A stretch of DNA of 64,000 nucleotides, from the NCBI RefSeq assembly GCF_001975825.1, contig NZ_MTKN01000040.1, forward strand, positions 10,158-74,157, given 5' to 3'. The DNA comes from [Flexibacter] sp. ATCC 35208. Its GTDB lineage: Bacteria > Bacteroidota > Bacteroidia > Chitinophagales > Chitinophagaceae. The first letter of the stretch is position 1; each line of letters starts with the position of its first letter. A model generated the notes under the pieces. The model was not told where the DNA came from. It saw only the letters and a program-made list of their open reading frames with translations, and made no database searches. Shown in pieces: positions 61,536-63,918 of the stretch. The position numbers and the translations under genes were made by a program.

Positions 61536-61784
61536 ATGTTAAGTAATGATACCCGTAGAAAACTTGAACATATCGTTAGAGGCCTTAGCCTTGAAGGGGA
61601 AGCAGATCATTGCACAGCAACCCGAAATTACTTATGCGCAAGCTTTAGCACAAGTAGAACGGTTAAAAAAGACTTCGAACGTAACGCAATCATCAAAAAA
61701 GAGCAGGCCCCAAACCTAACCTTTTTAAAAAATAAAGACTTTTATCTGCCCGGAGACGAGACGTTCTCCGGGCAGTCTTTTTAA
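61536..61784 (+). CDS. Truncated protein resembling the N-terminus of Bacteroidota polyvalent proteins
   Basis: An 82-residue protein: SNDTRRKLEHIVRG, then EADHCTATRNYLCASFSTSRTVKKDFE and IIKKEQAPNLTFLKNKDF. This matches, from my recollection of the family, the first 60 residues of larger Bacteroidota proteins annotated as putative polyvalent protein kinase domain proteins, found on mobile elements. Here it stops early, and its last codons (LPGDETFSGQSF) lie inside a rho-independent terminator hairpin. That layout suggests a 3'-truncated remnant joined to an existing terminator, or a genuine short form. Recognition is by eye, so confidence is moderate. Confidence 0.5.
   Translation: MLSNDTRRKLEHIVRGLSLEGEADHCTATRNYLCASFSTSRTVKKDFERNAIIKKEQAPNLTFLKNKDFYLPGDETFSGQSF
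61748..61780 (+). terminator. Rho-independent terminator overlapping the preceding ORF
   Basis: GCCCGGAGA, 8-nt loop, TCTCCGGGC, AGTC, then TTTTT. The stop codon of the 61536 gene (TAA, 61782-61784) comes after the T tract. Confidence 0.85.
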
Positions 61785-61818: not shown

Positions 61819-61826
61819 TACCTTTG
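61819..61826 (+). promoter_or_regulatory. -7 promoter element (TACCTTTG) for rsmG
   Basis: Exact TAnnTTTG match 9 bp before the ATG at 61836. A TTTC about 20 bp upstream may serve as the -33. Confidence 0.6.
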
Positions 61827-61835
61827 CGCCTACAT

Positions 61836-62459
61836 ATGGACATCATTCAAAAATACTTCGGGGACTTCACCCCTACTCAGGTCGAACAATTCTCAGCACT
61901 GTTCGAACTTTACAAGGATTGGAACGAAAAGATCAACGTCATTTCCCGTAAAGACATTGATGCCTTATATGAAAAACACGTCCTGCACTCACTGGCAATC
62001 GCTGCAATTGCTGACTTCCCGGATGGCCACCAGGTAATCGACCTCGGTACTGGTGGTGGTTTCCCAGGCATCCCCCTGGCCATCTTTTTCCCGGGGGTAA
62101 AGTTCCACCTTGTGGATGCCATCGGTAAAAAGATCAAGGTCGTACAGGGTGTAGCCGAAGCCCTGGAATTAAAGAACGTAACCACTGCCCACTCCCGCGC
62201 AGAAGATATCAGGGATAGAAAATTCGATGTGATTGTATCCCGTGCCGTAGCCCCCCTCAAGGACCTCTGGCGCTGGGGAAAACCATTGGTTAAAAAAGCG
62301 CCTGCTCATGCCCAGGAACCCGGTCTCATCTGCCTGAAAGGCGGCGACCTGGCCCTGGAAGTACAGGAAAGTGGCCTCAGACCCCGCCTCACTCCCGTTT
62401 ACCAGCTATTCCCTGAAGAGTTCTTCAAGGAAAAATTCGTAGTAGTGGTAAATAAGTAA
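61836..62459 (+). CDS. rsmG: 16S rRNA (guanine(527)-N7)-methyltransferase RsmG
   Basis: A 207-residue class I SAM methyltransferase. Motif block VIDLGTGGGFPGIPLAIFFP (about 65-84), FHLVDAIGKKIKVVQGV and SRAVAPLKDLWRWGKP are the RsmG pattern. An N-terminal helical part (WNEKINVISRKDIDALYEKHVLHSL) precedes it. It methylates G527 in the 530 loop; loss gives low-level streptomycin resistance in other bacteria. The ATG at 61836 is chosen over the TTG overlapping the -7 element. It follows a truncated gene and precedes the ECF sigma gene by 109 bp. Confidence 0.96.
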   Translation: MDIIQKYFGDFTPTQVEQFSALFELYKDWNEKINVISRKDIDALYEKHVLHSLAIAAIADFPDGHQVIDLGTGGGFPGIPLAIFFPGVKFHLVDAIGKKIKVVQGVAEALELKNVTTAHSRAEDIRDRKFDVIVSRAVAPLKDLWRWGKPLVKKAPAHAQEPGLICLKGGDLALEVQESGLRPRLTPVYQLFPEEFFKEKFVVVVNK

Positions 62460-62568
62460 AAATAATTCCTCTCTTAAATTATTGGTTTTCATTATTTATA
62501 GGCTAAATTCAAAAAAACTTTACTGAACTTTAAAATATCCTGCATTTTCCTTCGTCTCCAATAATAAG

Positions 62569-63153
62569 ATGAAAGAATTGCTCCTCACAAAAACGCCTCT
62601 AGCTATGGCTGCTGAACAAAATGAGCGCATACAGGAAACGGTGCGGAAGGAGCGGCAACGTCTACTCCATTTTATCCGGAAACGGGTGAATAATGTGGCG
62701 GATGCAGAAGATATTTTACAGGACGTTTTGTATCAGTTTACGGAATACTCCCGGTTGGGTAGTCAGATTGACTCTATTACCGCCTGGTTATTCACCGTAA
62801 CACGCAATAAAATTACCGACTGGTTTCGCAAGAAACGGGAGACTACCTTCAGCGATCATACACAGGAAATAGATGGAGAAGAGACTTTGTTCCTATCCGA
62901 ACTGATAGCCGATCAGGATGCCAGAAGTGATGCACCACTCACACGAAAAATTTTAGCAGAAGCGATTATGGAAGCCATAGAAGAGCTGCCGGAAGAACAG
63001 CGCTATGCATTTATACAGCATGAACTGGAAGGGAAATCCTTCAAGGAATTGTCTGCTGAAACCGGCATCTCCGTGAATACCCTATTGTCGAGAAAACGCT
63101 ACGCTGTACTGCACCTTCGCGAACGGCTGGCACAATTGTATGAAGAATTGTAA
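62569..63153 (+). CDS. ECF-type RNA polymerase sigma factor
   Basis: A 194-residue sigma factor. Region 2 (about 28-100) has QRLLHFIRKRVNNVADAEDILQDVLYQF and WLFTVTRNKITDWFRKK; region 4 (about 135-185) has IEELPEEQRYAFIQHELEGKSFKELSAETGISVNTLLSRKR, a helix-turn-helix. No sigma 1.1 or region 3. ECF factors direct transcription of stress, envelope or uptake genes when freed from an anti-sigma factor. A small membrane protein gene follows, starting inside or just after this stop codon; it may be the partner. Confidence 0.93.
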   Translation: MKELLLTKTPLAMAAEQNERIQETVRKERQRLLHFIRKRVNNVADAEDILQDVLYQFTEYSRLGSQIDSITAWLFTVTRNKITDWFRKKRETTFSDHTQEIDGEETLFLSELIADQDARSDAPLTRKILAEAIMEAIEELPEEQRYAFIQHELEGKSFKELSAETGISVNTLLSRKRYAVLHLRERLAQLYEEL

Positions 63154-63163
63154 AACACATTAT

Positions 63164-63604
63164 ATGTTTAAGAGAGGAGACAAAAAGCCGAAGGCTTTAC
63201 ATATTTTAAAGTTCATTGTCATGGGGGCGGTTTTCGTCACCGCACTGGGCTTCGGTATCCGTGAACTGTGGAATTGCCTGATACCTGAATTATTCCATGG
63301 ACCAGTTATTACTTTCTGGCAGGGTTTAGGCCTTTGCCTGTTGGGTAAAATGCTCTTTGGCTGGCATGGCGGCGGCCCGGGTGGTTTCAGAAGAAACAGA
63401 AGAGCCTGGGATGAAAAGCTGAAAGAACGCTATGCGAATATGACACCAGAAGACAGAGAGCGAATGAAAGAAGGATTGAAGAACTGGTGCCGACCTAATA
63501 ACCGCTTTAGCCGCTGGTATGATGATATCGACGCAAATGCGGATCAGCCTAAACACGACGCTAAACAGGAAGAAAGTAAACCAGATATAGGAACCAATAT
63601 TTAA
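63164..63604 (+). CDS. Small membrane protein downstream of the ECF sigma gene
   Basis: A 146-residue protein of no recognised family. Two hydrophobic helices (about 16-34: HILKFIVMGAVFVTALGFG; 50-65: ITFWQGLGLCLLGKML) bracket a short loop, then a Gly-rich turn (WHGGGPGGFRRNRR) and a cytoplasmic, charged helical tail (ERYANMTPEDRERMKEGLKNW) and an acidic end. The start at 63164 follows the sigma stop by 10 bp; an ATG at 63140 overlaps it by 14 bp. Position and topology fit a regulator of the sigma factor, but there is no anti-sigma motif to confirm it. Confidence 0.7.
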   Translation: MFKRGDKKPKALHILKFIVMGAVFVTALGFGIRELWNCLIPELFHGPVITFWQGLGLCLLGKMLFGWHGGGPGGFRRNRRAWDEKLKERYANMTPEDRERMKEGLKNWCRPNNRFSRWYDDIDANADQPKHDAKQEESKPDIGTNI

Positions 63605-63653
63605 TGTAGCCATGCGCTCCTTTGCCATTCAACCATCTACAACTTTTAATGCT

Positions 63654-63863
63654 ATGACAGGCATATTCAAAACTAATATAGCGACACCGGAAGAAAGAAC
63701 AAATGTACTCCATGCCATCCGGAACAATTATGAAGTAGGTCAGTGCCATGTAGACCTCGAAGATTGTGATAAGGTATTGAGGATTGTGAATATGAGTGTG
63801 GAAGAGAATGAGATGATAAAATTTGTGCAGCAGCAGGGGTTTAATTGTGAGGTATTAGATTAA
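63654..63863 (+). CDS. Small HMA-like (ferredoxin-fold) protein
   Basis: A 69-residue protein whose pattern fits a beta-alpha-beta-beta-alpha-beta fold: GIFKTNI, EERTNVLHAIRNN, CHVDLED, KVLRIVNMS, VEENEMIKFVQQQ, FNCEVLD. This resembles heavy-metal-associated domains without the usual CxxC (one Cys in QCHVDLEDC, another in FNCEV). The ATG at 63654 is chosen to start at the first strand; an ATG at 63612 would add 14 residues. It lies 49 bp after the membrane protein gene, and ends before a terminator, so the three genes form a unit. Confidence 0.65.
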   Translation: MTGIFKTNIATPEERTNVLHAIRNNYEVGQCHVDLEDCDKVLRIVNMSVEENEMIKFVQQQGFNCEVLD

Positions 63864-63888: not shown

Positions 63889-63918
63889 AAAAAGGATGTA
63901 CATTGTGCATCCTTTTTT
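63889..63918 (+). terminator. Terminator after the sigma-factor cassette
   Basis: AAAAAGGATGtACA pairs with TGTGCATCCTTTTT (one T-G wobble on this strand), followed by T. 25 bp after the stop. Confidence 0.85.

Follow-up and report, generated by a model that had tools for sequence, protein, structure and literature searches.

A conserved ECF sigma factor and two-helix membrane protein gene pair in Chitinophaga and beyond: a putative autoregulated module for envelope stress

The core unit of the locus studied here is a pair of genes, one for an ECF sigma factor and one, directly downstream, for a small two-helix membrane protein; a third gene, encoding an HMA-like protein, joined the pair in part of its range. 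The locus lies in the window (the whole 64,000-nucleotide stretch of [Flexibacter] sp. ATCC 35208 DNA analysed in this work). The pair was interpreted as an autoregulated module in which the membrane protein would act as anti-sigma factor and which would respond to envelope or membrane stress, a reading to which a probability of about 0.65 was given. We infer the anti-sigma role, the signal and the regulon from sequence comparisons. The features of the locus were the following:

61824-62459: rsmG, upstream neighbour of the ECF sigma gene
62531-62557, + strand: predicted ECF promoter, TAAAATAT-N13-TCGTCT (-35-like element 62531-62538, -10-like element 62552-62557)
62569-63153, + strand: ECF sigma factor, 194 aa (Pfam Sigma70_r2/Sigma70_r4_2)
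63164-63604, + strand: two-helix membrane protein with a charged helical C-terminal tail, 146 aa; putative anti-sigma factor
63654-63863, + strand: HMA-fold protein without CxxC, 69 aa; accessory gene
63889-63918, + strand: intrinsic terminator (13-pair stem and T-run), end of the unit

The source genome was an 8.63-Mb draft, and its genus was taken to be Chitinophaga. As the preliminary description had it, three close genes on the same strand were found at these places and ended in a single terminator, a strong hairpin plus T-run spanning 63889-63918 (z -5.7; -17.2 kcal/mol when the flanks are included), which a simple terminator scan missed. The sigma, membrane-protein and HMA-like genes are likely to form one transcription unit. 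The starts of the second and third genes, both inside longer frames of the ORF list, were backed by relatives: 63164 was favoured over 63140 as the likely start of the membrane protein, from its sequence and its relatives, and 63654 was the likely start of the HMA-like protein. Another strong hairpin, rich in GC and made of 11 pairs with T's after it, was seen at 61746-61775, between a glycosyltransferase-like gene and rsmG and within a short ORF.

The first gene encoded an ECF sigma factor, as already proposed: Sigma70_r2 (43.6 bits) and Sigma70_r4_2 (44.5 bits) were both above the Pfam cut-off, and the protein consisted of regions 2 and 4 with no large other domains. The sigma tree included the window sigma, 40 sigmas linked to the membrane protein (taken from 110 loci) and 18 of 20 fetched other ECFs of the source genome (two gave no hit), out of its 75 Sigma70_r2 matches. 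The 41 sampled linked sigmas, Acidobacteria included, were fully split from the 18 other ECFs (FastTree support 1.0), and identity to the window sigma was 41-86% for linked sigmas, versus 14-23% for the other ECFs of the source genome. As judged from this tree, the membrane-protein-linked sigmas form one clade spanning several phyla; the group may already be numbered in the ECF classification. In Chitinophaga sp. E66 (L175:3352-3992) matches to the sigma gene fell in two frames that overlap, as though the gene were broken or misread there.

At E <= 0.001, the membrane protein was matched in 45 of 59 relatives; the order gave matches in 103 of its 248 genomes and the phylum in 70 of 395, some of the latter being weak and partial. 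In a named collection, at least 545 of at least 592 matched stretches encoded such a protein, the best 80 being taken on, and among the matches listed the range extended from Chitinophaga and Hymenobacter to Ignavibacteria and Acidobacteria. The source genome encoded one such protein at the same threshold, versus its 75 Sigma70_r2 matches. The sigma gene was directly upstream of the membrane-protein gene in 36/36 Chitinophaga genomes and adjoined it in 8/9 loci of other families (the exception was L046); a weak second match in one genus genome (L047) had no sigma beside it. In a second locus set, which partly overlapped the first and extended to Ignavibacteria and Acidobacteria, the sigma gene was upstream in 109 of 110 loci (108 by script, L240 from coordinates), and the sole exception, L243, was a cut contig with only 98 nt upstream. 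A sigma/membrane-protein fusion considered for L240 was rejected: the long ORF overlapped sigma only in another frame. The gene grouping was above chance, since the pair was conserved far beyond the genus.

The HMA-like gene followed the pair in 32 of 36 genus genomes (missing in L021, L022, L023 and L026) and, by single-sequence search, in none of the nine other-family loci, eight of which kept the pair. With a profile, 27 of the 110 loci gave hits; these came from Chitinophaga and further genera of the family, and from two Bacteroidetes MAGs (L225, L235), the L175 hit being in an unclear frame. The trio first put forward was not supported as the unit, because its third gene was often absent where the pair persisted; conservation of the order sigma/membrane protein held (36/36 in the genus, 109/110 loci) and that of the HMA-like gene did not.

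The membrane protein showed two hydrophobic segments, an almost uncharged 15-residue loop between them and then a K/R-rich tail. In alignment A2 (77 of 81 sequences from the window and 80 loci; L167, L183, L206 and L243 were left out) the mean number of K+R was 2.70 in the N-terminus, 0.09 in the loop and 11.69 in the tail (67-110). An N-in/C-in topology is predicted because of this distribution under the positive-inside rule, which would place the tail on the cytosolic side and agrees with the two helices and charged cytosolic tail of the preliminary description. The structural model, of moderate confidence (pLDDT 76, pTM 0.35), comprised helices 9-43, 50-65, 71-90, 94-107 and 114-125; it gave no fold match at E < 1 among solved structures, and a sequence search likewise gave nothing usable. 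A further alignment (A1) included 37 of 46 membrane-protein sequences, leaving out seven that were similar to others and the weak L046 and L047. The best conserved part of the protein was the transmembrane hairpin (LWNWLxPxLFxGPxITFWQALGLLxLSKILFG), not the tail; two tail residues, W81 and E95, were nearly invariant.

Known anti-sigma domains were absent from the Pfam hits of the 77 members, as the earlier remark on a missing anti-sigma motif had anticipated, and the three families matched at E <= 0.01 did not include the FecR domain (PF04773). There was no domain or fold hit for an N-terminal ASDI four-helix domain, and only some ten residues preceded the first membrane helix. Metal_resist was matched weakly by 11 of the 77 members (best E 4.9e-5), and there was one weak CopD match. 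Two-helix proteins of this type constitute an unannotated family, putatively of anti-sigma factors. The strongest competing explanation is that the membrane protein is the first target of sigma (a membrane-protecting protein) or a positive co-sensor always made together with it. Such a role would be consistent with a gene inside a probably autoregulated operon, with the lack of an anti-sigma domain and with conservation peaking in the hairpin rather than in the tail; however, the protein is linked almost universally, across phyla, to a single sigma clade, and its helical tail, K/R-rich and predicted to be cytosolic, keeps W81 and E95 nearly invariant. Both points argue against such a role, and the explanation was considered unlikely. 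Co-evolution was discarded as evidence: in the genus, the distance-matrix correlation of sigma with the membrane protein (0.80) was no better than that with the unrelated rsmG (0.82) and was uninformative.

A promoter motif, TA[A/C]AATAT-N13-TCGTC[A/T], was derived from the footprint of the aligned genus upstream regions. It was exact upstream of sigma in 32 of 36 genus genomes and had one deviation in the other four; the sigma ATG at 62569, 11 nt downstream of the motif end, was kept in the same alignment. The motif replaced a first guess, TGAACTTT...CGTCT, read from the window alone, which was not conserved and gave 162 hits in a genome search versus 316 when the pattern was reversed. In a looser form, A[A/C]AATAT-N13-15-CGTC, the motif was found upstream of 54 of 108 linked sigmas, the other 54 being without even that. 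Of eight other-family loci, five had the looser form; only 22 nt lay upstream in one of these loci. The sigma operon is probably autoregulated, and on these upstream sequences the putative autoregulation extends past the genus. We infer that the window sigma recognizes the motif.

In 36 genus genomes (a nearly identical set to the 36 of the sigma-upstream count) the exact motif occurred at 116 sites, 32 at sigma and 84 elsewhere, versus 19 hits for the reversed pattern. Eighty of the 84 non-sigma sites were examined, and 56 preceded five gene families, a tally that covers motif sites only. The first downstream genes were ABC exporters at 18 sites, metallophosphoesterases at 14, beta-lactamase-fold hydrolases at 10, a 778-aa protein at nine and NAD-dependent epimerases at five. 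For each site the longest ORF whose ATG lay within 250 nt counted as the downstream gene, clusters were made by single linkage and family domains were assigned from six examples; because of the longest-ORF choice and the single-linkage clustering, two or more types of exporter are combined in the ABC group. Eleven of the 80 sites had no downstream ORF by script, and of these L087, L090 and L140 were flagged inside a longer ORF, as were two counted targets, L115 (hydrolase) and L119 (ABC). Two lpxC sites in two close genomes (L102, L159) seemed to be at or inside the gene and were kept out of the five-family count.

A scoring matrix was built solely from the 36 sigma upstream regions, to lessen circularity, and applied with a threshold of >= 8 bits. 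Of the metallophosphoesterase relatives, 26 of 30 had an upstream region that reached it, as did 17 of 30 among the hydrolases and 18 of 23 among the ABC relatives (4, 13 and 5 were below), the relatives scored being 30 of 49, 30 of 43 and 23 of 23 matches respectively; the controls reached it in 1/83 (reversed) and 0/83 (reverse-complement). When the count was confined to the 50 relatives that lack the exact pattern, 28 scored >= 8 bits versus 1 control, though these tests were partly circular because the target families were picked for having exact-motif members. The predicted targets in the source genome were the own operon, an ABC exporter (C182:41542) and a beta-lactamase-fold hydrolase (C342:25460), together with a metallophosphoesterase (C31) behind a weaker site of 15.3 bits; a second metallophosphoesterase (C110) was outside the scored set, and one of the four exact sites of this genome (C240) fell inside a gene. 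By name, metal genes were not among the main predicted target families. Because of these families, the response was read as one of the envelope or its lipids.

Several of these families showed further features. The beta-lactamase-fold hydrolase had relatives in 34/36 genus genomes (E <= 1e-60), and a hydrophobic N-terminus was seen in the copies read (G000:C342:25497-26603, L088, L094, L103, L110 and L115); that it is a lipid hydrolase is a guess. The 778-aa protein (L147:567-2900 and eight similar loci) stood behind the motif in nine loci and had no Pfam match at 1e-5. A second group of metallophosphoesterase paralogues (L322, L324-L330 and L332-L335) often had a variant upstream site, e.g. 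TACAATT...TTATTCGTCT, perhaps a weaker or altered promoter.

Among 248 genomes of the order, the motif was present in 49/103 genomes with the membrane protein versus 16/145 without it (Fisher 1.9e-10), an excess to which the sigma gene's own promoter contributed, with 22 of the 76 sites in the former (hand count); without the sigma-gene sites the difference was 36/103 versus 16/145 (p 7e-6). The reversed pattern leaned the same way (34/103 versus 30/145, p 0.04). Non-sigma sites numbered 54 versus 44 reversed-pattern hits in genomes with the protein, and 17 versus 36 in those without it, so that a regulon outside the genus is suggested at most. The motif might also be genuine but serve another ECF, or be the binding site of a repressor, with the regulon under a different regulator. 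In favour of this, Sigma70_r2 was matched 75 times in the source genome, promoters of different ECFs can overlap, a -10 element of the CGTC type is common among ECFs and, outside the genus, non-sigma sites barely exceeded the reversed control; yet the motif was found at the sigma gene in 36/36 genomes (one deviation allowed) and was commoner with the pair even after removal of sigma's own site. A different regulator was judged improbable.

The third protein was HMA-like, as had been described. Its model (beta-alpha-beta-beta-alpha-beta, mean pLDDT 90.9) fitted the HMA fold, and its top PDB fold matches were HMA metallochaperones and HMA domains (TM about 0.6-0.85), none of them reaching E 0.001. 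The HMA family (PF00403) was not among the Pfam/NCBIfam hits of 17 members at E <= 1, and a search of the profile against the sequences of solved structures gave no HMA chain. In the 17-member alignment (A3; 17 of 19 sequences from the window and 18 matches in named loci, L167 and L175 left out) the CxxC metal-binding motif was absent; C40 and C67 were conserved, and C33 was found in 15/17. More HMA-like genes were observed away from the sigma operon in Chitinophaga, with 1-6 profile matches per genome (the operon copy included where present), and four genus genomes without an operon copy also had such paralogues. The protein would be a co-transcribed accessory gene product where present.

That the HMA-like protein could sense metal, as the preliminary description suggested, was unsupported because CxxC was absent and none of the main predicted target families had the name of a metal gene. 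A cassette for metal sensing, in which this protein would bind metal and pass the signal to sigma, is the least supported reading of the module and highly improbable: the HMA fold, the conserved cysteines and the weak Metal_resist and CopD matches of the membrane protein would fit it, but the gene was absent from 4/36 genus genomes and 9/9 other-family loci while 8 of those 9 kept the pair, and the Metal_resist-like tail is predicted to be cytosolic.

The preferred reading, that of an autoregulated sigma/anti-sigma module, would work as follows. In unstressed cells the two-helix protein would use its cytosolic tail, of two to three helices, to tether sigma at the inner membrane; a disturbance sensed by the conserved transmembrane hairpin would weaken this hold, and the released sigma would transcribe from TA[A/C]AATAT-N13-TCGTC[A/T] promoters. 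The predicted output in the source genome would be the own operon, the ABC exporter, the beta-lactamase-fold hydrolase and, from the weaker site, the metallophosphoesterase, and the HMA-like protein, where present, would be a co-transcribed accessory output or a modulator. Of the new sensing cassette originally suggested, the idea itself was plausible from the pair, the shared promoter motif and the predicted regulon, and the trio and the metal input were given up.

A more far-reaching proposal, which we hold as tentative and put at somewhat under even odds, is that the two-helix protein founds a distinct anti-sigma class, with a C-terminal cytosolic clasp, no periplasmic domain and the membrane hairpin as its only sensor, so that the module would read the state of the inner membrane. 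Together with its sigma clade it would be of old origin and wide range, occurring in Bacteroidota, Ignavibacteria and Acidobacteria. In Chitinophaga at least, the module would drive a regulon for lipid/envelope repair, and no report was found of the promoter type used. If true, an envelope-stress pathway and a membrane-only sensor would be common to several phyla. The small unannotated family comes with a testable partner, a promoter motif and a target list, in genera that can be grown. Judged by title or start of abstract, no paper on the sigma/membrane-protein pair or on the motif was found.

Among known systems, HMA metallochaperones (CsoZ, MerP, CopZ) share the fold of the third protein, which differs in having no CxxC metal site. 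CnrY, which has CnrX as sensor, crosses the membrane with a single helix and is N-terminal. The likeness to CnrY/CnrX is that a short helical stretch, not a full domain, could clasp sigma, together with the weak Metal_resist signal in some tails here; the difference is the arrangement of two helices and a C-terminal tail. CnrY is named as a class II anti-sigma factor, and the class I domain (ASDI) is described as an N-terminal four-helix domain, in the accessible part of one source (PMC7406223). As in class I (RseA, RskA, RsiW, ChrR), where the factors are mostly membrane-bound, the gene of the putative inhibitor adjoins the ECF gene; in contrast to the N-terminal ASDI as that source presents it, the main cytosolic part here would be the C-terminal tail, with no known domain.

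In Flavobacterium psychrophilum, an ECF-type CGT box was mapped with T9SS and other targets, according to the accessible part of the report (PMC9723704). Dma1/Dma2, which act with ECF21 sigmas of Bacteroides, are introduced as a newly described membrane anti-sigma family in the portion available of PMC13088901. As outlined there, they share with the pair the control of an ECF in Bacteroidota by a membrane anti-sigma family (putative in our case), but carry their anti-sigma domain at the N-terminus and a beta-barrel at the C-terminus, with a single transmembrane helix and a long tether, versus 146 aa and a 15-residue outside loop here.

Two Bacillus subtilis operons may be set beside the pair, the first being sigY-yxlC-yxlD, which we take to be a comparable system. 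The second, sigM-yhdL-yhdK, is in the accessible part of its source an autoregulated ECF operon with membrane anti-sigma proteins directly downstream and many membrane-associated or secreted targets (PMC6827917). It has two anti-sigma proteins, versus one two-helix protein here, and, likened by that description, would follow a similar logic: an autoregulated ECF operon with a downstream membrane partner.
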